From positions 1-64,000 of the forward strand of contig JAAYQU010000047.1 in the NCBI GenBank assembly GCA_012519055.1: 64,000 bases of DNA. Reading direction: 5' to 3'. This document shows, one piece after another, positions 1,085 to 47,982 of the stretch. The notes under the pieces are model-generated. The model worked only from the letters and a program-made list of their open reading frames with translations. It was not told the DNA's origin and ran no database searches. How positions within the stretch are numbered: the first letter of the stretch is position 1; each line of letters begins with the position of its first letter. Source of the stretch: Bacteroidales bacterium (lineage in GTDB: Bacteria > Bacteroidota > Bacteroidia > Bacteroidales > Salinivirgaceae). Both the position numbers and the translations under genes were made by a program.

Positions 1085-1259
1085 AATGACAAACAAGCTA
1101 TAACATGTGCTTGATGTTTAACCTTCTGCTATTAACTCAATTACTAACTTCTTTTCCTGTTTGTGCTAAAGCCTACAAAACATATATATATTACCAGCCC
1201 CCTCGACTTTCGCCCGTAGGGCGACACTTTTAACTTTCACCTTGCACCTTTTTACTAAA

Positions 1260-1294
1260 TTGCTAATTGTTAATTGCTAATTGCTAATTGAATT
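1260..1294 (-). repeat. Heptad tandem repeat (TTGCTAA / TTAGCAA type)
   Basis: Four in-phase 7-base units, TTGCTAA, TTGTTAA, TTGCTAA and TTGCTAA, are followed by a degenerate TTGAATT. On the minus strand this is the same unit as the GCAATTA arrays at 6894, 20912, 35754, 45803 and 46469. This is the only copy that does not lie downstream of a gene in sense orientation. Confidence 0.85.
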
Positions 1295-6893: not shown

Positions 6894-6928
6894 GGCAATT
6901 AGCAATGTGCAATGAACAATGAGCAATT
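6894..6928 (+). repeat. Heptad array GCAATTA type, directly after the rnfA stop
   Basis: Five in-phase 7-base units (GGCAATT, AGCAATG, TGCAATG, AACAATG, AGCAATT) begin at the first base after the rnfA TAA. A further three units of the same type lie at 6978-6998. Confidence 0.9.
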
Positions 6929-6954
6929 AGTTGACTGAATGTCAGTGTGTTGTA

Positions 6955-7056
6955 GAGACGTCATATTATGGCGTCTCAGCAATGAGCAATGAGCAATTAT
7001 TAATTAATCTATTGAATATCAGTGTATTGCAGAGACACTGTATTTATGGTGTCTCT
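6955..7056. repeat. Two related hairpins in a duplicated intergenic module
   Basis: Hairpin one is GAGACG/CGTCTC (6955-6977) with an inner CAT/ATG pairing. Hairpin two is AGAGACAC/GTGTCTCT (7031-7056). Each is preceded by a GAGCAATTA unit and a TGAATRTCAGTGTRTTG stretch, so a segment of about 65 bases is present twice in tandem and has diverged, with changes on both sides of the stems. They could end rnf transcripts, but no clean T-run follows either. Confidence 0.7.
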
Positions 7057-9755: not shown

Positions 9756-9821
9756 AAAAATTTTACCTTGCTCCTTTTACCTTTTACCTATAAAAGCGTT
9801 ATAAACAAATAGTTAACAATC

Positions 9822-10397
9822 ATGAATTTGAACAAAAAACGTTGTCCATGGGCTATATTAAGCGACGAGAAATATGTGGAATACCACGATAAAGAGTGGG
9901 GTGTGCCTCTGTTTGATGACAACAGACTTTTTGAGATGTTAGTATTAGAGGGCGCACAGGCAGGGTTAAGCTGGCGCACTATTCTTCACAAACGCGACGA
10001 GTATAGAAGCTGTTTCTTTGGATTTAATCCCGAAAAGGTTGCGAGAATGACCAATGATGACGTGGAGACTCTTATGTTAACAGGTGGAATTATTCGTAAC
10101 AGATTGAAAATAAGCTCTGCCATTAAAAACGCTAAGGTTTTTATTGATATTGTTGAAAAATATGGTTCATTCTCGAACTACTATTGGAATTGGGTTGACG
10201 GAAAACCTATTATCAATCACTTTAAGACAATGGATGAGGTTCCCGCCAAGACACCCCTTTCCGAAGCGATAAGCAAGGATTTAAAAGGCAGAGGTATGTC
10301 TTTTATTGGAGCCACGATAATATATTCGTTTATGCAGGCAACAGGAATGGTTAACGACCATTTAACAAGCTGTTTTAGGCATAAAGAGTTGTGTTAG
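9822..10397 (+). CDS. tag: DNA-3-methyladenine glycosylase I
   Basis: Tag removes 3-methyladenine from alkylated DNA by base excision. The 191-residue protein has the Tag zinc ligands C8, H22, H180 and C184 with the family spacing, and the conserved LEGAQAGLSW segment in which E43 corresponds to the base-recognition glutamate. The length matches the family. It stands alone, in a gap with repeats upstream and a stem-loop downstream. No alkylation regulator (Ada) is nearby. Confidence 0.95.
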   Translation: MNLNKKRCPWAILSDEKYVEYHDKEWGVPLFDDNRLFEMLVLEGAQAGLSWRTILHKRDEYRSCFFGFNPEKVARMTNDDVETLMLTGGIIRNRLKISSAIKNAKVFIDIVEKYGSFSNYYWNWVDGKPIINHFKTMDEVPAKTPLSEAISKDLKGRGMSFIGATIIYSFMQATGMVNDHLTSCFRHKELC

Positions 10398-11478: not shown

Positions 11479-14058
11479 ATGTCAAATTATCCCTCAAAAA
11501 AAATTAAAACAGCTATCTTTACTTCTATTTTTTTGCTACTCGCAGTAATATTAATATCGTGCAAGAGTAACAACAAGCAAACTCTGATAATTAAGAATTT
11601 AGACCAGAATTGGCAATTTTCGCAAGCGAATGAAGAAAAATGGCTTCCTGCTACTGTACCAGGCATTGTTCACACCGATTTATTTAAAAATGTGGCTATT
11701 CCCCACCCTTTTTACGCTTGCAACGAGGATTCACTACAGTGGATTGATAAACAAGATTGGGAGTATAAAACAACTTTTATTGCTGATAAAGCTCTGCTTG
11801 AAAAAGAGAATATTTATCTAATATTCGAAGGATTAGATACTTACGCTGAAATCAAGCTAAACAATACTGTTTTAGGAAACACAAATAATATGTTTAGAGA
11901 GTGGGCATTCGATATTAGTAATATTGTTCGTAGTGGCGAAAATGAGCTAAATATAGTTTTTAAATCTGCTTACAACCAAACATACAGTGATTCAGCATCT
12001 TACAGAGTAACATTGCCCGGCGGAAAGTATGTTTTTGCGCGCAAAGCCGCATATCATTTTGGCTGGGATTGGGGTCCTACTTTTATTACATCGGGTATAT
12101 GGAAACCTGTTTATTTAAAGGCTTGGGACAACAATTTGGTCGAAAATTTTTATATCAAAACAGAGTCCGTCACACCCGACAAAGCAACGGTTGATATTAG
12201 CTTCGATATTGCAAACAGAAAAAACGAAGATGCAAAAATTGAAATTAAGGTTAATAGCAAAAAGCATTTGCAGTCGAATTTCTGTATCAACTCGTTGCGT
12301 AAAACATATAACTTTAGTCTTGAGATTAATAAGCCAAAACTCTGGTGGTGTAATGATTTGGGCGAACCGTATCTTTATGATATTGATGTGCAAATAACCT
12401 CTACGGCAGGGCTAATTTACTCAAAACAAATAAAATACGGTATCAGGACAGTTGAAGTTGTGTCTGAACCCGACAGCATTGGGCAGTCGATGTATATAAA
12501 ACTAAATGGAACACCTGTTTTTATCAAAGGAGCCAACTATATACCACAACATAGCTTTGTCACTGAGGTAACCGATAACGATTACGCCAATATAATTTCG
12601 CTTGCTAAAGAGTCGAATATGAATATGTTACGTGTTTGGGGCGGTGGAATATACGAAAACGATATTTTTTACGACCTCTGCGACCAAAACGGAATTATGG
12701 TTTGGCAAGATTTTATGTTTGCTTGTGCCATGTATCCTATTGACATTCAGTTTTTTGACAATGTATCAGTTGAAGCGGAACAGCAAATAAAAAGGTTGCG
12801 AAATCATTCCTCGTTAGCTCTGTGGTGTGGCAATAACGAAATTGATGAGGGTTGGCACAATTGGGGTTGGCAAAGAGAGTTTAAGTTTTCAAAAGCCGAT
12901 TCATCTGATATTTGGAACGGATATAAACATCTGTTTCACAATATCTTACCAAATCTTGTTTTAGAAAACGACAGGGATAGGTTTTACACAACCACATCGC
13001 CCATTTATGGTTGGGGGCGCGACAAGAGTATGACACACTACGATTCGCACTACTGGGGCGTATGGTGGGGAATGCAACCATTTAGTAAATATTTGGATAA
13101 AGTGCCCCGATTTATGAGCGAATACGGTTTTCAGGCTATGCCAGCTAAATCCACGATTAGAACGTTTCAGCCGGAAACATGCGATAGCCTCTTCTCGCCC
13201 ACTCTACTATGTCATCAGAAACACCGCATTGGTTATCAGACAATTACAAAATATTTGGAGTATGAAAAACTGTATCCTAAAACGCTTGATGACTTTATTT
13301 ATATGAGCCAACTAATTCAAGCCGAGGGCATTGGCTTGGCTATCGAGGCACACCGAAGAGCTAAACCGCTGTGTATGGGAACATTATATTGGCAATTGAA
13401 CGACTGTTGGTCCGTAACAAGCTGGAGCAGCACCGATTTTTACGGCACTCCCAAAATGTTGCAATATAAAATTAAAGAGCTGTTTGACAACATTATAGTT
13501 TCATTGCTAAAACATAATGACAGCATTGATGTTTTTGTCGTTTCTGATAAATTATCGGATATTAAGGGCGAGGTAACCCTCTCGGCAATTGACTTTTCGG
13601 GGAAAAGAGAGACTCTTTTTAATAAAACAATTACAGTTCCGACTAACAGTTCTGTTCATGCTATTTCCTTGTCAGCAACAGATCTGTTTGAAAAGTTTCC
13701 ACCCGAAACGACGCTTTTTGAAGCAACATTTAAAAATGACGATAACGTATATACAAATCGGAAGTTTTTGGCACCGTTAGGAACTATAAAAGTGCCTAAA
13801 GCTGAGTATAATATTAATATAAAGCCAATTAAAAACGGTTACGAACTTTTGTTAGAGGCGAAAACTTTAATGGCTTATGTTCATCTTTCGCTTGGGGACA
13901 AACAGGGCAAGTTTAGCAAAAACCATTTTACTCTTTTACCAAATGAGAAAATTGTGGTATTTTTGGAATGTGATTTGGGTAAAGAAGAGGTGGAGAGTTT
14001 GTTGACAGTTAAGTGTTTGTTGATTTCGGATATTGGAACACAGAAAACACAGATTTAA
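11479..14058 (+). CDS. GH2 beta-mannosidase lipoprotein
   Basis: This is a glycoside hydrolase family 2 beta-mannosidase, which releases terminal beta-linked mannose from mannosides. With ATG 11479 (rather than TTG 11461) the 859-residue protein has a lipoprotein signal ending LISC at C28. The N-terminal jelly roll contains NWQFSQ-x6-WLPATVPGIVHTDLF, typical of beta-mannosidases. The acid/base is E454 in WCGNNE and the nucleophile E548 in MSEYGFQ. The final residues SDIGTQKTQI are encoded by an intergenic-type repeat (14028-14150), so the C terminus appears to have been extended by repeat sequence. It probably works with the GH92 enzyme downstream. Confidence 0.92.
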   Translation: MSNYPSKKIKTAIFTSIFLLLAVILISCKSNNKQTLIIKNLDQNWQFSQANEEKWLPATVPGIVHTDLFKNVAIPHPFYACNEDSLQWIDKQDWEYKTTFIADKALLEKENIYLIFEGLDTYAEIKLNNTVLGNTNNMFREWAFDISNIVRSGENELNIVFKSAYNQTYSDSASYRVTLPGGKYVFARKAAYHFGWDWGPTFITSGIWKPVYLKAWDNNLVENFYIKTESVTPDKATVDISFDIANRKNEDAKIEIKVNSKKHLQSNFCINSLRKTYNFSLEINKPKLWWCNDLGEPYLYDIDVQITSTAGLIYSKQIKYGIRTVEVVSEPDSIGQSMYIKLNGTPVFIKGANYIPQHSFVTEVTDNDYANIISLAKESNMNMLRVWGGGIYENDIFYDLCDQNGIMVWQDFMFACAMYPIDIQFFDNVSVEAEQQIKRLRNHSSLALWCGNNEIDEGWHNWGWQREFKFSKADSSDIWNGYKHLFHNILPNLVLENDRDRFYTTTSPIYGWGRDKSMTHYDSHYWGVWWGMQPFSKYLDKVPRFMSEYGFQAMPAKSTIRTFQPETCDSLFSPTLLCHQKHRIGYQTITKYLEYEKLYPKTLDDFIYMSQLIQAEGIGLAIEAHRRAKPLCMGTLYWQLNDCWSVTSWSSTDFYGTPKMLQYKIKELFDNIIVSLLKHNDSIDVFVVSDKLSDIKGEVTLSAIDFSGKRETLFNKTITVPTNSSVHAISLSATDLFEKFPPETTLFEATFKNDDNVYTNRKFLAPLGTIKVPKAEYNINIKPIKNGYELLLEAKTLMAYVHLSLGDKQGKFSKNHFTLLPNEKIVVFLECDLGKEEVESLLTVKCLLISDIGTQKTQI

Positions 14059-14150
14059 CAGATTTACACGGATATCGGATTTGTGATTTCGGATTTCGGA
14101 TTTTTGGAACACAGAACACACTGATTAGACGGATTTACACGGATTTTTGG
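14028..14150 (+). repeat. Tandem copies of a CGGATTT/ACACAGA repeat overlapping the mannosidase 3' end
   Basis: Two copies of a unit of about 50 bases (TTTCGGAT...TTGGAACACAGA...ACACGGAT) lie at about 14028-14078 and 14091-14150. Between them the units TCGGATT, TGTGATT, TCGGATT, TCGGATT keep a strict 7-base phase. The first copy encodes the C terminus and stop codon of the mannosidase. An inverted copy lies at 14432-14480. Confidence 0.8.
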
Positions 14151-14521
14151 ATTTGTGGTTGGTTATTAGTGAACGTTAACTAAATAACCATTAAGGAGTT
14201 AAGGATAGTTTAGGAAAGACTTCGTCTTTATGATATGGGTGATTTTTAGTTAATTAATTGTTTTTTAACTTTTTAAACTGCGCTAAGTAAATATTAAAAA
14301 GTTTAGAAAATTTAGAAAAGACTTCGTCTTTATAATGTATTTGAATTTCAGGTAATTAATTTTTTTTAACTTTATGAACTCTCAACTAAAAGAAACATTG
14401 AGGTTTTGGGCGACCACAAGGGTCGCCCCTACGTTAAATCTGTGATTATCCGTTAAATCTGTGTCATCTGCGTTCCAATTACTTTTAACTTTATGAACTT
14501 TTAACTTTTAACTCAATAAAC
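14059..14521. other. 463-base repeat-rich gap between the two mannosidase genes
   Basis: No ORF is visible. Contents in order: the CGGATTT repeats; hairpin AAAGAC-TTC-GTCTTT at 14215-14229, preceded by a GGAGTTAAGGATAG arm; a second, related copy of the same hairpin at 14317-14331; the palindrome GGGCGACC/GGTCGCCC at 14408-14428; an inverted copy of the first repeat at 14432-14480; and AACTTTT-type units (14481-14516) running up to the GH92 start. Confidence 0.7.
14408..14428. repeat. Palindrome GGGCGACC-ACAAG-GGTCGCCC
   Basis: An 8-bp perfect stem with a 5-base loop. It shares the core GGGCGA/TCGCCC with the palindrome at 1210-1224, so the two are probably members of one dispersed family. 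Confidence 0.75.
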
Positions 14522-20056: not shown

Positions 20057-20920
20057 ATGAGAACTACTATATTGTTGATAATTATGCTATTAAGCTCAAA
20101 TATTTTAATGTGTCAAATGCGGACATATACCATTTATGACAAAACTGGAAAAGAGCTTGATTTTGAAGAGTTGGTAAACGTATCCCTTAAATCGGAATTG
20201 GTTTTCTTTGGTGAGTTGCATAATAACTCGATTGCCCACTGGCTACAAATAAAAATGCTTAAATCATTCATAGAGGCTACCGACCGCCAAATAGTTGTTG
20301 GAATGGAGATGTTTGAATCTGATGATCAGACACTTATTGATGAGTATTTAAACGGTATTATTCCGGAACGGAACTTTGAAGAGGAAGCTAAACTATGGTC
20401 AAACTACAAAACTGACTATAAACCTATAGTTTTGGTTGCTAAAGAGCATAAAATACCTGTTATTGCAACAAATACTCCCCGCAGATACGCTGCAATGGTT
20501 AATCGTGGTGGGTTTGAGGCTTTAGATAATCTAACCGATGAGGCAAAACAATTAATCGTCCCTCTCCCATTTGCTTTTGATGCGGAGCTACCAGGATATA
20601 AATTGATGACAGAAATGTCCCCAATGCAAAGCGTGAAAATAAATGTAGAGAACTTAGCTAAAGCTCAGGCATTGAAAGATGCAACTATGGCGCATTTTAT
20701 ACTTAAAAACCTCAAAGACAGAGGCTTGTTTTTCCATATCAACGGCATTTACCATACGAAAAACAACGAGGGTATTTTGTGGTATATTAACAATCAACTA
20801 AAAGGGGTGAAAATTACAACTATTAGCACAATTACGGTTTTGGATATAAACTCTGTTGATACTAGCGAGTTACAAACAGCGGATTTTACTATTTGTATAG
20901 ATTCTGACTTTAGCAATTAA
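20057..20920 (+). CDS. ChaN family (haem-binding uptake, Tiki superfamily) exported protein
   Basis: The 287-residue protein has a signal peptide (about 1-19). The ChaN/DUF399 signatures are VFFGELHNNSIAHWLQ, VGMEMFESDDQ and PVIATNTPRRYAAMV. Campylobacter ChaN binds haem, and the wider Tiki fold includes metalloproteases. The E-x-H in GELHNN is the conserved metal or haem site. There are no neighbours for iron uptake, so the substrate is open. Its last codons (AGC AAT TAA) are already part of a heptad repeat array. Confidence 0.8.
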   Translation: MRTTILLIIMLLSSNILMCQMRTYTIYDKTGKELDFEELVNVSLKSELVFFGELHNNSIAHWLQIKMLKSFIEATDRQIVVGMEMFESDDQTLIDEYLNGIIPERNFEEEAKLWSNYKTDYKPIVLVAKEHKIPVIATNTPRRYAAMVNRGGFEALDNLTDEAKQLIVPLPFAFDAELPGYKLMTEMSPMQSVKINVENLAKAQALKDATMAHFILKNLKDRGLFFHINGIYHTKNNEGILWYINNQLKGVKITTISTITVLDINSVDTSELQTADFTICIDSDFSN

Positions 20921-20946
20921 CAATGTGCAATTAGCAATGAATAATT
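20912..20946 (+). repeat. Heptad array across the ChaN stop codon
   Basis: Five in-phase units AGCAATT, AACAATG, TGCAATT, AGCAATG, AATAATT begin six bases before the stop codon, so the final Ser-Asn and the TAA are encoded by the repeat. Confidence 0.9.
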
Positions 20947-20963
20947 AAATGGCTGATTTTCAC

Positions 20964-21206
20964 TCAATTGCCACGACTTTTAAGTCGTGGAATAGGTTAC
21001 ACACAGAAAATAGGCTTTAGCCCAAACTTACTTTATTTTCAGGTTTTGAAAGTCATAAGCCTTAATAAACTCATTGTATTCATCTGCAAAAGTTTTTCTT
21101 TTTTGATGCTCTTCCTGATTGACCATGTAAGCCGTTTTTTATAGATTTAGGCTAAAGCCATTTTTAATTCATTTATTATCCGTGCCTTAAAAGGCACGGC
21201 AATTGA
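20964..21206. mobile_element. Internally deleted REP/IS200-type element (243 bp) with palindromic ends
   Basis: The left end reads TCAATTGCC followed by a palindrome (20971-20990, CCACGACTT/AAGTCGTGG). The right end is the inverted counterpart (palindrome 21180-21199, CCGTGCCTT/AAGGCACGG, then GCAATTGA). Compared on one strand, the two ends agree over about 29 bases, and their differences keep each palindrome paired. A second inverted pair lies inside (GGCTTTAGCC at 21013-21022, GGCTAAAGCC at 21150-21159). The interior keeps only the 3' end of a Y1 transposase on the minus strand. It fits a MITE-like derivative of a RAYT element. Confidence 0.7.
21028..21138 (-). pseudogene. C-terminal remnant of a REP-associated tyrosine transposase
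   Basis: On the minus strand an open frame from 21138 to the TAA at 21028-21030 reads MVNQEEHQKRKTFADEYNEF, then IKAYDFQNLKIK and stop. The NQEEH-x-KKTF-x-EEY pattern is the characteristic C terminus of Bacteroidetes IS200-like/RAYT Y1 transposases. The catalytic HUH and tyrosine parts are absent, and a stop codon lies just upstream in the frame (21139-21141). This is therefore a relic, too short to be functional. Confidence 0.7.
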
Positions 21207-35526: not shown

Positions 35527-35685
35527 ATGGCAAAGAAAGCAGTAGCAACATTGAGAAAAGGTGGCAGCACAAAAGGTTACGCCAAAGTTATTAAAATGGT
35601 AAAATCTCCAAAAACTGGATCTTATCAGTTTAAAGAAGATGTTGTACCACAAGAAGAGATAAAAAATTTCTTTAGCAAAAAATAG
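35527..35685 (+). CDS. DUF4295 protein, Bacteroidetes-specific ribosomal protein (bL38)
   Basis: This 52-residue, strongly basic protein begins MAKKAVATLRKGGSTKGYAK and ends EEIKNFFSKK. It matches the DUF4295 family that always follows rpmG in Bacteroidetes. From memory, this family was identified as an extra large-subunit protein, called bL38, in the Flavobacterium johnsoniae ribosome structure. The operon ends with the terminator 27 bases further on. Confidence 0.9.
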   Translation: MAKKAVATLRKGGSTKGYAKVIKMVKSPKTGSYQFKEDVVPQEEIKNFFSKK

Positions 35686-35711: not shown

Positions 35712-35735
35712 AAGCCTTCCTTGGGAGGCTTTTTT
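35712..35735 (+). terminator. Terminator of the rpmB-rpmG-DUF4295 operon
   Basis: AAGCCT and AGGCTT pair around an eight-base loop, with TTTTT immediately after the stem. Confidence 0.85.
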
Positions 35736-35753
35736 GCGTTATATTAACAACTA

Positions 35754-36100
35754 AGCAATTAACAATGAGCAATGAACAATTAGCAATTTAGTTAAAAGTT
35801 GAAAGTGGTTGGTGGTTGGTAAGTGGTGAATGGTGAATGGTGAATGGTGAATGGTGAATGGTGAGTAGTGAATGGTAAGTGGTGAAAATCAATCATATTT
35901 TAAAGACGTAGTCTTTCCTTAATATTCCTTAACTCCTAATTGGTTTAATTTAATGGTCGGAAGACCGAAGTCTGAAGTCAGAAGACAGAAAAACGAAAAG
36001 TCGAAGCCTATTTCAAAAAAGACACAACTCGTTCCACGCAAGACGCACCTTTTACCTTGTACCTTTTACCTTGCACCTTGTTCCTTGCAACTCGCAACTT
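35754..36100 (+). repeat. Compound cluster of four heptad tandem-repeat families
   Basis: Array A, 35754-35788: five AGCAATT-type units. Array B, 35791-35888: fourteen in-phase units from GTTAAAA and GTTGAAA through GTGGTTG to GTGAATG. Array C, 35956-36004: seven GTCTGAA-type units (GTCGGAA, GACCGAA, GTCTGAA, GTCAGAA, GACAGAA, AAACGAA, AAGTCGA). Array D, 36045-36100: eight units GCACCTT, TTACCTT, GTACCTT and so on to GCAACTT. Unit sequences differ completely between arrays, yet the 7-base period is strict in each. Confidence 0.9.
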
Positions 36101-36180: not shown

Positions 36181-37125
36181 ATGTTCTTTTTCTCAAAAGA
36201 CAAAAAAGAGACTCTTGATAAAGGGCTCCATAAAACACGAGAAAGTGTTTTGTATAAACTCGGTAGAGCAATACTCGGCAAATCAAAAGTTGATAATGAA
36301 GTACTTGACAATCTCGAAGAAGTGCTGCTTTCATCTGATGTTGGTGTCGACACCACTTTGAGAATTATTGAGTCAGTAGAAAAGCGCATCAAAAGAGATA
36401 AGTACGTTAACACTGATGAGCTGAATAATGTCTTAAAGCAAGAGATAGCTGCTCTATTAGAAGAAAACGACAACGAAGATGAAATGGGGTTTAATCCACC
36501 GGAAAACAAAAAACCTTACGTAATACTGGTTGTTGGCGTTAATGGTGTAGGCAAGACAACAACTATCGGGAAGTTGGCATACCAATTCAAACAGAGTGGT
36601 AACTCGGTTATGTTAGGAGCAGCTGACACTTTTCGAGCGGCAGCCGTTGAACAGCTTGTTATTTGGGGCGAACGTGTTGGGGTTCCGGTTATTAAGCAAC
36701 AAATGGGAGCTGATCCTGCTTCTGTTGCTTTCGATACAGTTAAATCTGCCGTAGCAAACAATATAGATGTTGTTTTAATTGATACTGCAGGAAGACTGCA
36801 CAACAAAATCAACCTAATGAACGAACTTACCAAAATAAGGAAAGTGATTCAAAAGATTGTTCCAGAGGGACCTCATCAGGTTTTGTTAGTTTTAGACGGT
36901 AGCACAGGACAGAACGCTTTTGAACAAGCAAAACAGTTTACTGCTGCTACAAAAGTTACCGACTTGGCACTGACCAAGTTAGACGGAACAGCAAAAGGTG
37001 GCGTTGTTATTGGTATCTCTGACCAATTTAAAATTCCGGTACGCTATATTGGTGTGGGTGAGGGAATTGAAAATTTGCAGCTGTTTAACAAAGCTGAGTT
37101 TGTGGATTCGCTGTTTAAAAGCTGA
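36181..37125 (+). CDS. ftsY: Signal recognition particle receptor FtsY
   Basis: FtsY is the GTPase that docks SRP-ribosome complexes at the membrane. The 314-residue protein has only a short basic N terminus in place of the long acidic A domain of E. coli, then the N helical bundle and the G domain: GVNGVGKTT at 119-127, DTFRAAAVEQL, DTAGRLHNKINLMNEL and TKLDGTAKGG. It has its own promoter and is normally followed directly by rimO in Bacteroidetes. Here two extra genes separate them. Confidence 0.97.
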   Translation: MFFFSKDKKETLDKGLHKTRESVLYKLGRAILGKSKVDNEVLDNLEEVLLSSDVGVDTTLRIIESVEKRIKRDKYVNTDELNNVLKQEIAALLEENDNEDEMGFNPPENKKPYVILVVGVNGVGKTTTIGKLAYQFKQSGNSVMLGAADTFRAAAVEQLVIWGERVGVPVIKQQMGADPASVAFDTVKSAVANNIDVVLIDTAGRLHNKINLMNELTKIRKVIQKIVPEGPHQVLLVLDGSTGQNAFEQAKQFTAATKVTDLALTKLDGTAKGGVVIGISDQFKIPVRYIGVGEGIENLQLFNKAEFVDSLFKS

Positions 37126-43018: not shown

Positions 43019-45811
43019 ATGAGTCATAAAGACGACTACATAATAATTTCGGGAGCAAAAGTTCACAATCTTAAAAATATAAGCCTCGAAATTCCCAGAG
43101 ATAAAATTATTGTTGTTACAGGCGTTTCGGGAAGTGGAAAATCATCGTTAGCATTCGATACACTTTATGCTGAGGGGCAGCGAAGATATGTAGAATCTTT
43201 ATCGGCTTATGCCCGACAGTTCCTTGGAAAGATAAATAAGCCCGCCGTTGATTCCATTAAAGGCATTCCGCCCGCAATTGCCATTGAACAAAAAGTTGGT
43301 TCGAGCAATCCACGCTCTACAGTTGGGACATCAACGGAGATATATGAATATCTAAGACTTCTGTTTGCACGCATAGGAAGAACATTCTCCCCTATTTCGG
43401 GCAAAGAGGTTTCAAGACACTCAGTTACTGATGTTGTCGATTATATAACCTCTCTGAATGAGGGAACGAGAGCTATGATACTCACTCCTATTCAAATTAA
43501 AAATGTTGAGGCGGATTTGAAATTGGTTTTAGCACATGGGTTCCAGCGAATTTTATCGGCAAATGAGGTAATTAATATCGAAGATCTTACAGATTATAGC
43601 CTAATAAACAAAAAGACAGATAGTTACGTCGTAGTTGACAGAGTAGTTGCTTCAACAGAAAAGGACAATATGTCGCGCATGGCCGATTCTGTTCAAACAG
43701 CTTTCGACGAGGGACACGGCAAATGTTCAATCTATATTCCAGAAACATCTCATTATCAGCATTTTTCAGACCGATTTGAACTTGACGGGATAGAGTTTGA
43801 ACTTCCAACCGAACATCTTTTCAGTTATAACAGTCCTATGGGCGCATGCAAACGTTGTGACGGATACGGACAAACACTCGGAATAGACGAAAACTTGGTA
43901 ATACCCGACAAAAGCTTGTCGATATATCAGGGTGCTATTGCCTGCTGGCGTGGCGAGGTTATGAAAGAGTTTAATAATCTGTTGATTAGCAACGCATCAA
44001 AATTCAATTTTCCAATTCACAAACCATACTTTGAACTTACAGACGAACAAAAGCGACTGCTTTGGACTGGTAACAAATATTTTGAAGGTATTAACAGTTT
44101 CTTTGAAATGCTTGAAAGAAACCTGTATAAAATACAGTATCGGGTAATGCTAAGTCGCTATCGTGGAAAAACAATTTGTCCTGACTGTTTGGGTTCACGA
44201 CTACGGAAAGAGGTTAATTATGTGAAAGTTGGAGGTTATTCCCTACCCGACTTAATACAAAAACCTATCGAAGAGCTTGACAAAATTTTCAACAATTTAG
44301 TTCTAGATAAACACGAACAGGTAATAAGCGAAAGGGTGCTACTGGAGATTAGAAACCGTATTGGTTTTCTTAAAGAAGTAGGTTTGGGTTACTTGACCTT
44401 AAATCGTCGTTCAGACACACTATCTGGTGGAGAAGCCCAGAGGATAAGGCTTTCGGCATCGTTAGGTTCTAATTTAGTCGGCGCACTATATATTTTGGAC
44501 GAACCGAGCATTGGGCTGCATTCAAGGGATACGCAACGTTTAATCAAAGTTCTGAAAAAACTCAGAAACTTGGGAAACACGGTCTTAGTTGTTGAGCATG
44601 ACGAGGAGATAATACAATCAGCTGATTATGTAATTGATATTGGTCCCGGTGCAGGTATTTTTGGCGGAAACTTGATTTTTGCAGGAGAGAAAGCCGATAT
44701 TTTGAAGCAAGAAAACAGCCTTACAGCTGGTTATCTAAATAGAACATTGAAAATTGATATTCCCGCAAAAAGGCGACCGTTTAATAAAAGCATAAAAATT
44801 GTTGGCGCAAGGCACAATAACCTGAAAGGATTTGATGTAGATATACCTCTAAATGTATTAACAACAATTACAGGTGTTAGTGGCTCCGGAAAGTCATCAC
44901 TTATAAAAGGTATTTTTGTTCCTGCCCTGCAAATTGCATATAACGGGCACTCCGACTTTGTTGGACAACATATTAAAATTGAGGGAGATATTAAAACTCA
45001 TAAAAGGGTTGAGTTTATTGACCAAAACCCGATTGGACGCTCATCGCGCTCAAACCCAGTTACTTATATAAAAGCCTACGATGATATAAGAAAACTATTT
45101 TCGGACCAACAGTTGGCTGTACAAATGCGCTTTAAACCTTCACATTTCTCATTCAATACCGATGGTGGTCGATGCGAAGCCTGTCAAGGAGAAGGTATTA
45201 CTACTGTTAGTATGCAATTTATGGCAGACGTCCAACTAGTTTGCGAGGAGTGTGGCGGTAAACGTTTTAAAGACGACGTTTTGAGCGTTAAATACAGAGG
45301 TAAATCAATTTACGATGTACTTGAAATGACTGTTAGCGAAGCAATTGATTTTTTCAGTCAAGGAAAAAGTTCATTAGCTAAAAAAATTGCAAAAAACCTA
45401 CAACCATTAGCCGATGTTGGTCTCGATTATGTGCATTTAGGACAATCATCATCGACGCTTTCGGGTGGTGAGAGTCAGCGAGTTAAGCTAGCTTCGTATC
45501 TTTCAAAAGATTTGGGAGACGGTTCCGACACCATAATATTTGTTTTTGACGAACCCACTACGGGTCTTCATTTTCACGATATTAGCAAACTGTTAGCATC
45601 GTTCGACGCACTTATAAAACACGGACACTCAATTGTTGTAGTTGAGCATAATTTAGAAGTAATTAAATCATCTGATTGGGTTATTGATTTAGGTCCCGAG
45701 GGTGGCGAAAAGGGCGGGAATATTGTTGTTTGTGGTACTCCTGAACAGGTTGCGATGTGTGACAAATCATATACGGGACATTTTTTGAAAGAGAGACTAA
45801 TAGGCAATTAG
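43019..45811 (+). CDS. uvrA: Excinuclease ABC subunit A
   Basis: UvrA recognises DNA damage in nucleotide excision repair. The 930-residue protein has both ABC ATPase units: Walker [10 protein letters not shown] twice, signature LSGGEAQR and LSGGESQR. The C-terminal zinc site is complete (C719, C722, C742, C745). At the first zinc finger only the second pair C277/C280 (CKRCDGYG) is present; the usual CxxC about 20-25 residues before it is replaced by [14 protein letters not shown]. Its last two codons lie in a heptad repeat that fills the gap to the next gene. Confidence 0.95.
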
Positions 45812-45844
45812 CAATTAACAATGTGCAATTAACAATTATCAATT
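45803..45844 (+). repeat. Heptad array filling the uvrA-AlaX gap
   Basis: Six in-phase units (GGCAATT, AGCAATT, AACAATG, TGCAATT, AACAATT, ATCAATT) start inside the last two uvrA codons, contain its TAG stop and end one base before the next ATG. Confidence 0.92.
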
Positions 45845-46349: not shown

Positions 46350-46468
46350 ATTGCCCTTTATCTTAATTGGGGTATATCATTTAACCACACCAAAAAATAC
46401 AAGTCAGGACATACATCAACCCATTCCACAACTTAAAAGTCGTTGCTATTAATCTGACAATCACCTCA

Positions 46469-46503
46469 TTAATTGCTAATTGCTAATTGTTAATTGATAA
46501 TTG
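46469..46503 (-). repeat. Heptad array directly after the cls stop
   Basis: On the minus strand five in-phase units CAATTAT, CAATTAA, CAATTAG, CAATTAG, CAATTAA begin at the base following the cls TAA, in sense orientation with the gene. Confidence 0.9.
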
Positions 46504-47982
46504 TTACAATAACGGGCTGGCAATACGAGCAATATTGGCCTTAAACTTATTCATAACTGGTCTCTTAGTCCACTCATCAAGATATATCAACTCGCTATCT
46601 TTCAAATCTTCAAAAAACCAATAAGTTAATTCTGAGGTAACAACAGGATCGTAAATCAACGCATTAACTTCGAAATTTTGGCTAAAGCTTCTATAATCCA
46701 TATTGGCTGTTCCGATTGAACAAAACGCGTCGTCCACCATAATTATCTTACTGTGATTAAATCCTTTACGGTATATATAAACCTCTATTCCAGCCTCAAG
46801 CAACTCATTTACAAAAGAGAGTGTTGCAAAATAGACAAACTTAGAATCACTTATTCCTGGTATTAAAATTTTAACATCTATGCCACTAAGAGCAGCTGTT
46901 TTAAGTGCAGTTAAAATACTTTCATTTGGAATAAAATATGGCGTTGATATATATACGTTTTTTCGCGCCAAAGTGATTGAAGTAAAATAAGCCTGCATAA
47001 TGCTAGCCCAGTCAGAGTCGGGTCCTGACGCAACTATTTGAACTAATGTTTTGTCGTCTATCAAGGGTTCGGGGAAATAGATAGGGTCGTCTAACAGCTC
47101 TTTTTTCAAGAAATACCAATCTGTAGCAAAAATTATTTGCAGTGCGACAGCAGCCTGACCCTCTGTCATCATATGTGTATCGCGCCAAAATGGTATTTTG
47201 CTATTGCCATGTATATAGTGGTCGGCAATATTTATCCCACCAACAAAACCCACTCTACCATCGACAACTGTAATTTTTCTATGATTACGGTAATTGATTT
47301 TTCTTGTAAGAATTGGGAAACTTACAGGCATAAAACAGGCAAACTCAATACCATGCTTCTCCAACTCTCTGATAAACTGCTTTTTAAGTTTCCAACTACC
47401 AACATCATCATATATTATTTTTACTTTCACACCCTCGTCTGCTTTTTTTATTAGAATATTACCAAGCTCTTTTCCAATATTGTCGGACTCCAGTATGTAA
47501 TACTCAAGGTGTATATGATGTTTAGCTTTTTTCATTGCTTTAAACATAGCCCTGAACTTTTCGTCCCCGTTATTAAGAATCGAAACCTTGTTAATATTTG
47601 TTAAAATCGCCTTGCTATTACGAAGTAACAGTCTAACTATCTTGGTTTTATCTTCAATATATGGATCGTGAATATAGGTTTTCTCAGCCAAGTCGCTTAA
47701 TTGTTCAGCGCTGAGTTCTTCGAGCTTAATAAAGTCAACCAATCCTTTTCGACTAAAAATTTTCTGTTTTCTGTAGTTTTGTCCGAACACTAAGTAAAAA
47801 ACTATTCCCACAACGGGGACTAGAATTAAAACCAGTATCCACGACATTGTTTTGTGTGGCGAACGATTTTGACTTATAATAATGATTGCCGTAGCAATAA
47901 CTGTAATTACATAAACTAAAGTGATAACATTGCCTATGTTTGACCAAAAATTTGGTAAATTTTCTATAATATTATCAAACAT
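46504..47982 (-). CDS. cls: Cardiolipin synthase (phospholipase D family)
   Basis: The enzyme makes cardiolipin from two phosphatidylglycerol molecules. The 492-residue protein has two N-terminal membrane segments (about 17-37 and 46-66) and two HKD motifs: H234-x-K236-x4-D241 and H410-x-K412-x4-D417, each followed by a G-x-N segment (GGINIADHY, GTANMDYRS). It is the last gene of the minus-strand run beginning with prmA, 26 bases after the GT9 gene. Confidence 0.95.
   Translation of the reverse strand: MFDNIIENLPNFWSNIGNVITLVYVITVIATAIIIISQNRSPHKTMSWILVLILVPVVGIVFYLVFGQNYRKQKIFSRKGLVDFIKLEELSAEQLSDLAEKTYIHDPYIEDKTKIVRLLLRNSKAILTNINKVSILNNGDEKFRAMFKAMKKAKHHIHLEYYILESDNIGKELGNILIKKADEGVKVKIIYDDVGSWKLKKQFIRELEKHGIEFACFMPVSFPILTRKINYRNHRKITVVDGRVGFVGGINIADHYIHGNSKIPFWRDTHMMTEGQAAVALQIIFATDWYFLKKELLDDPIYFPEPLIDDKTLVQIVASGPDSDWASIMQAYFTSITLARKNVYISTPYFIPNESILTALKTAALSGIDVKILIPGISDSKFVYFATLSFVNELLEAGIEVYIYRKGFNHSKIIMVDDAFCSIGTANMDYRSFSQNFEVNALIYDPVVTSELTYWFFEDLKDSELIYLDEWTKRPVMNKFKANIARIASPLL

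Follow-up and report, generated by a model that had tools for sequence, protein, structure and literature searches.

Our analysis shows that the gap between a DUF4295-type gene and ftsY in a Bacteroidales genome carries four tandem arrays with a 7-base period, and that this period dominates the strictly repeated intergenic DNA of the genome to the near exclusion of all others. The arrays lie between genes, were gained in this lineage, draw on unit families that recur from locus to locus, prefer gene ends, and run with their G-rich strand outward from the nearest gene edge. The pattern is real, strong and of an already known kind; our work adds the exclusivity of lag 7 over several bacterial groups, the sharing of units across phyla and a general strand rule. 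Being tandem 7-base units above chance, intergenic, dispersed and divided among several families, the heptads are of the STRR type.

Heptad arrays between DUF4295 and ftsY

The gap lies in the second half of the window (the whole stretch of DNA analysed, 64,000 nucleotides), and its neighbour genes are ordinary: bL28, DUF4295 and FtsY. On its left is a plus-strand DUF4295-type gene for a small protein of 52 aa (35527-35685), recognized from its translation and from homologues at the same place before ftsY in relatives, and on its right is ftsY itself (36181-37125, plus strand), with homologues in 30 of the 31 genomes searched. The DUF4295 gene is followed by a terminator-like hairpin and T run, AAGCCTTCCTTGGGAGGCTTTTTT (35712-35735, plus strand), read from the sequence and matched by a similar hairpin and T run in the gaps of most relatives. 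Approximately 350 bases of arrays sit between this hairpin and ftsY.

Four arrays were delimited with TRF, with lag-7 identities of 0.72-0.80 per array. Array 1, of the AGCAATT/AACAATG family, has 5 units (35754-35788, plus strand; identity 0.79), and array 2, which passes from AAGTTGA to GTGGTTG to GTGAATG, has about 13 (35797-35885, G-rich strand plus; 0.80). Array 3, GTCTGAA/GACNGAA, has 5 units (35956-35990, plus strand; 0.79), and array 4, GCACCTT/TTACCTT, has 8 (36044-36100, minus strand; 0.72), its G-rich strand, AAGGTGC, being the minus strand and so reading outward from ftsY. The recount gives about 31 units where the original prediction had about 34; its numbers held for arrays 1 and 4 and were too high for arrays 2 and 3. 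The central claim, four strict 7-base-period arrays at 35754-36100, was borne out: lag-7 identity over this interval was 0.576, compared with a mean of 0.265 and a maximum of 0.341 in 2000 dinucleotide-preserving shuffles (z 12.8). Lags 2-6 and 8-13 were near or below chance, and lag 14 was also high because it follows from lag 7. Read along the sequence, the 7-base phase is continuous from 35754 to 35885 whilst the unit shifts stepwise, through AGCAATT, TAGTTAA, AAGTTGA, AAGTGGT, TGGTGGT, TGGTAAG and TGGTGAA.

No GGG run occurs in 35754-36100, and the region therefore lacks the G-quadruplex pattern of at least four runs of at least three G. The gap also contains no inverted repeat of 12 bases or more.

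Other arrays in the window

Smaller arrays had been proposed at seven further places in the window, and six of these hold. At 1226-1294 (minus strand), ACCTTGC/ACTTTTA arrays are followed by TAATTGC; outward from the right-hand gene the strand reads CAATTAG and then AAGGTGC. GCAATTA/GCAATGA arrays at 6894-7000 (plus strand) begin directly after a stop codon and flank both sides of a GTAGAGACG hairpin (6952-6977), and a TTTTACC array (9764-9793, minus strand) lies upstream of an ORF at 9822. The GCAATTA/GCAATGT array at 20912-20946 and the GCAATTA array at 45803-45844 (both plus strand) begin in the last codons of ORFs 20057-20920 and 43019-45811, and their first units provide the stop codons, which makes the claim that arrays are always between genes slightly off. 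Finally, a TAATTGC array (46469-46503, minus strand) is flush with the 3' end of the minus-strand ORF 46504-47982. The exception is 14028-14150, where identity is the same at lag 7 as at lag 9 (0.41) and the sequence is mainly a 71-base duplication, with no strict heptad array.

Two other kinds of repeat were seen alongside the heptads. The interval 14022-14157 consists of two copies of a 71-base unit built from ACAGATTT/ACACGGATT words of 9-10 bases; loci L006, L043 and L047 and one relative (L071) contain similar words, and these repeats form a repeat class distinct from heptads. A second dispersed hairpin, CCACGACTTTTAAGTCGTGG, is present at 20947-21000, at 46420-46465 and in locus L011 (1870-1960); it adjoins AGCAATT arrays, from which it is set off by a conserved spacer like GGCTGATTNTCA.

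Period 7 genome-wide and in other groups

The survey covered 779,666 bases of this 2.71 Mb draft genome of 53 contigs and scanned periods 2-22 for strict arrays, defined by at least 13 of 14 matching positions. Eighteen strict intergenic arrays had period 7, every other period contributed between none and two, and shuffled gaps yielded 0.1 period-7 arrays on average. No strict period-7 array was found in coding sequence within the 779,666 bases. The lag scan thus gave an excess at lag 7 and not at 5, 6, 8 or 9, which supports the idea put forward at the outset that some process makes or keeps 7-base steps. Arrays also cluster, with two or more in six gaps against 2.4 expected (p 0.017).

The same period dominates elsewhere. 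Sampled Bacteroidota (the phylum in the GTDB sense, as the same-phylum genome G075 gives match coordinates identical to those of the genome that carries the named Stygiobacter locus L161; 20 stretches bearing the palindrome described below and 20 free of it) held 41 intergenic period-7 arrays in total, with no more than 8 at any other period, and pooled cyanobacteria held 73, with 17 at the next highest period, 9; coding regions gave no comparable period-7 peak. This smaller second peak at period 9 was seen only in cyanobacteria, in the sampled loci.

Gain of the arrays

The DUF4295-ftsY gap measures 498 bp here and 35-435 bp in the 23 relatives with both flanking genes, and none of the relatives' gaps read contained heptad arrays. 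Between species, with one genome per species compared, the arrays at this site are either present or absent. A family, CAATTARCAATTARCAAT, matches 125 times in this genome, never in the same-genus genomes G001 and G002, and 84 times in a single genome from the same order; strict period-7 arrays number 0 in 200 kb of G001 and 1 in 132 kb of G002. With few or none in same-genus genomes and none in relatives' gaps, the arrays must have been gained, or hugely expanded, in this lineage.

Position and strand polarity

Arrays favour gene 3' ends. In this genome 32% lie within 10 bp of one, compared with 13% expected under random intergenic placement, and the corresponding figures in cyanobacteria are 30% and 10%. 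AGCAATT arrays frequently begin at, or supply, a stop codon. The gene edges used here are crude ORF calls, and one of them is wrong at the window gap, where the caller misses DUF4295 because of its shortness.

When arrays are read outward from the nearest gene edge, related arrays agree in orientation. Here, 82% of pairs were concordant (p 0.0002, flipping orientations by gap), with p 0.003 for the AGCAATT family alone and p 0.006 for the remaining families; in cyanobacteria concordance was 63-66% (p about 0.003). Orientation measured against transcription or against the plus strand did not reach significance overall. By base counts, the outward strand is the G-rich one: G exceeds C in 100 of 136 arrays and in every group, namely 23/35 here, 50/73 in cyanobacteria and 27/28 in other Bacteroidota, the last having been held out when the rule was framed. 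Taken by itself, this genome does not give a significant result for the G/C form of the rule (p 0.09), and support for polarity here comes from the pairwise concordance test, not from the G/C count.

Neighbouring arrays obey the same geometry. Adjacent arrays that share a gap follow the order G then C in 14 cases and C then G in two. In tandem gaps, G predominates on the sense strand up to 15 bases downstream of stops (26 to 6), and C predominates on it up to 40 bases upstream of starts (27 to 3). The polarity fades at greater distance from stops and more than 30 bp from gene edges, and it did not appear in divergent gaps, where 7 of 19 arrays were outward. An artefact of ORF calling is not the source, as the same arrays, inserted at random places and in either orientation and scored with the same caller, were outward in 46-48% of cases overall and 40-51% per class; neither is the base skew of gaps, given that array-free gaps have no matching excess of G over C.

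Unit families shared across phyla

The arrays had been thought to have nothing in common but their period. This no longer stands, as families recur at many loci and units are common to phyla beyond composition-matched chance. The recurrent families of this genome are GCAATTA/GCAATGA, AAGGTRC/AAAAGT, TTGGTGG and ACGAATT. Units vary inside arrays, and the variants CAATTAA, CAATTAG, CAATGTG and CAATGAA recur at many loci, a pattern that points to spreading or gene conversion in addition to local birth.

Six of 30 Bacteroidota units are also cyanobacterial, where 1.9 would be expected with letters shuffled within the unit (p 0.008), and 25 of the 30 differ from some cyanobacterial unit by at most one substitution, compared with 17 after shuffling (p below 0.002); since such unit features were found by scanning, the single p values are optimistic, and more weight lies in the agreement between phyla. 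Depletion of A-x-A and enrichment of T-x-A likewise occur in the units of both Bacteroidota and Cyanobacteria. Two simpler ideas were discarded: a core motif, A.T, is enriched but not universal, and the self-complementarity of units is the same as in shuffled units, which leaves no sign of hairpin-driven expansion or self-pairing.

A dispersed palindrome and a candidate transposase

The hairpin at 6952-6977 is one copy of a palindrome, GTAGAGACG-N-CGTCTCTAC, whose 9-base arms are fixed and whose middle is self-complementary and varies between copies. There are 42 full copies in this genome. The palindrome is present in 43 of 297 Bacteroidota searched, and also in Cyanobacteria (up to 384 copies), Acidobacteria, Chloroflexi and Desulfo- groups, whilst a reversed control pattern almost never matched; it seems common to several phyla. 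It resembles GTAG-tagged REP elements (PMC3733652). The genome encodes a single Y1 transposase domain (PF01797, RAYT family; G000:C21:70020-70352), a candidate mover of the palindromes. Coupling between palindromes and heptads was rejected at genome level: sampled Bacteroidota that carry the palindrome and those that lack it have similar heptad densities (1.04 and 1.20 per 100 kb). At the local scale, a heptad array is found within 100 bp of 4 of 20 palindromes, against 6.8% expected, which is a weak association.

Origin of the arrays

Our data are, on balance, best read as STRR-type heptanucleotide arrays that grew by slippage with a preferred 7-base step and that flank mosaic intergenic inserts, a model to which we give somewhat better than even credence. 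An array would start when seven bases close to a gene end were duplicated by chance, and would grow and shrink by strand slippage strongly preferring the 7-base step. It would survive because it lies between genes, where indels are harmless. Repeated rounds at a tolerant site could then give several unit families per gap, in continuous phase where families drift, and some arrays may have spread with small dispersed repeats, producing mosaic inserts with heptad arrays on their flanks. In Nostoc, Elhai reportedly described, in 2008, heptamer arrays in which small dispersed repeats are embedded. We infer slippage as the driving process, near-neutrality and the step of dispersal. Plain slippage explains neither the number 7 nor the polarity, and on random sequence it predicts neither the shared units nor the preferred strand.

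The polarity is explained well by a different model, in which the arrays are the inverted-repeat-like outer ends of small dispersed MITE- or REP-like elements that insert at gene ends and carry the heptads with them. Outward concordance between loci is what this model would give, both here and in cyanobacteria, and in four loci (L011, L018, L041 and L043) oppositely oriented AGCAATT-family arrays bound one gap. Conserved spacers and hairpins often come after arrays, Xanthomonas genomes hold 70-75 convergent heptad pairs each (Rehm 2015), and the Y1 transposase is of the RAYT-like family. However, inverted element ends explain neither the many families nor the many arrays that stand alone. Paired arrays enclose differing sequences, no inverted repeat of the length sought is present in the window gap, and the RAYT-like palindrome has no genome-level link to heptad density. 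We regard this origin as possible, at perhaps one chance in a few.

A rather less probable reading, which we put forward tentatively, makes more of the strand rule: the occurrence of a G-rich outward strand in arrays of many unit sequences, seen in three or more phyla and chiefly in tandem and convergent gaps, might reflect one conserved process of sequence-tuned 7-base steps acting on DNA ends or on transcription-exposed gene ends, and not generic slippage.

It is unlikely, to a somewhat greater degree, that the arrays are maintained by selection for a regulatory role at the RNA or DNA level, for example as 3'-UTR elements, terminators or protein-binding arrays. The enrichment by gene 3' ends in both groups and the G-rich strand after stops and C-rich strand before starts in tandem gaps would suit such a role, and translational regulation has been proposed for TAACTGA repeats (MacGregor 2015, PMC4679880). 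Against this, the same gap has no arrays in same-genus relatives, and unit sequence changes from locus to locus. A special RNA fold was considered and rejected, the window-gap RNA being no more stable than shuffles (z -1.05).

Telomere-like 3'-end addition at double-strand breaks, making G-rich heptads that point into the gap before end joining, would make the G-rich strand enter the gap 5' to 3' at either edge, as in the 100 of 136 arrays and the 14 to 2 ordering. We consider it very improbable: a search of this genome for the RVT_1 reverse transcriptase domain gave no match (very divergent enzymes could escape such a search), divergent gaps are without polarity, and polarity fades away from gene edges. 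Lastly, an assembly or sequencing artefact, which a draft genome of 53 contigs might invite, is scarcely credible, because units are degenerate and neighbouring arrays differ, and the same pattern occurs at many independent loci and in long single-contig assemblies of other phyla.

Any account of heptad origin must explain the G-rich-strand-outward rule, which holds here, in related genomes and in cyanobacteria. Why 7-base units dominate among bacterial intergenic repeats has been a standing question since at least 2007. Polarity and shared units are constraints that simple slippage fails, and both can be checked by re-analysing public genomes; they shift the question from the period to which process sees gene ends and strands.

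Relation to known heptad systems

According to later papers that cite it, the survey of Mrazek 2007 found heptanucleotides to be the most abundant class of long SSR in most genomes (via PMC4679880) and offered a hypothesis of polymerase-contact slippage for the number 7 (via PMC4679880 and PMC4692102). Our arrays resemble those SSRs, as so summarized, and the STRR of filamentous cyanobacteria in their 7-base unit, intergenic position, many units and scattered phylogenetic distribution; they differ, as far as those summaries go, in that cross-phylum unit sharing and outward polarity were measured here and in that the arrays are mostly short, at 3-9 units.

The original prediction knew of no description of heptads in this phylum, but one exists: heptamer direct repeats are present in five Bacteroidetes, with other heptamer repeats sharing the same intergenic regions, and relatives of the carriers have shorter gaps without repeats (MacGregor 2015, PMC4679880). 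As with the TAACTGA and other heptamers of Beggiatoaceae, Cyanobacteria and those five Bacteroidetes, the arrays described here are intergenic, with several heptamer types per gap, and here too relatives have shorter, repeat-free gaps. Unlike those repeats, which lie mainly before start codons, ours belong to other unit families and are often by stop codons.

The closest parallel in orientation comes from GGGAATC in two Xanthomonas genomes and GGGGAYT in Nostoc (Rehm 2015, PMC4692102). Whilst those repeats are one G-rich, quadruplex-capable family and most families here have no three-G runs, they share with our arrays the heptad period, the intergenic location, the convergent pairs and an ORF closer on the 5' side of the G-rich strand. 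In Xanthomonas the nearer ORF is almost exclusively on the 5' side of GGGAATC (28 compared with 160 nt) and each genome has 70-75 convergently oriented pairs, which is the same strand geometry as that reported here, in Proteobacteria and for one family.
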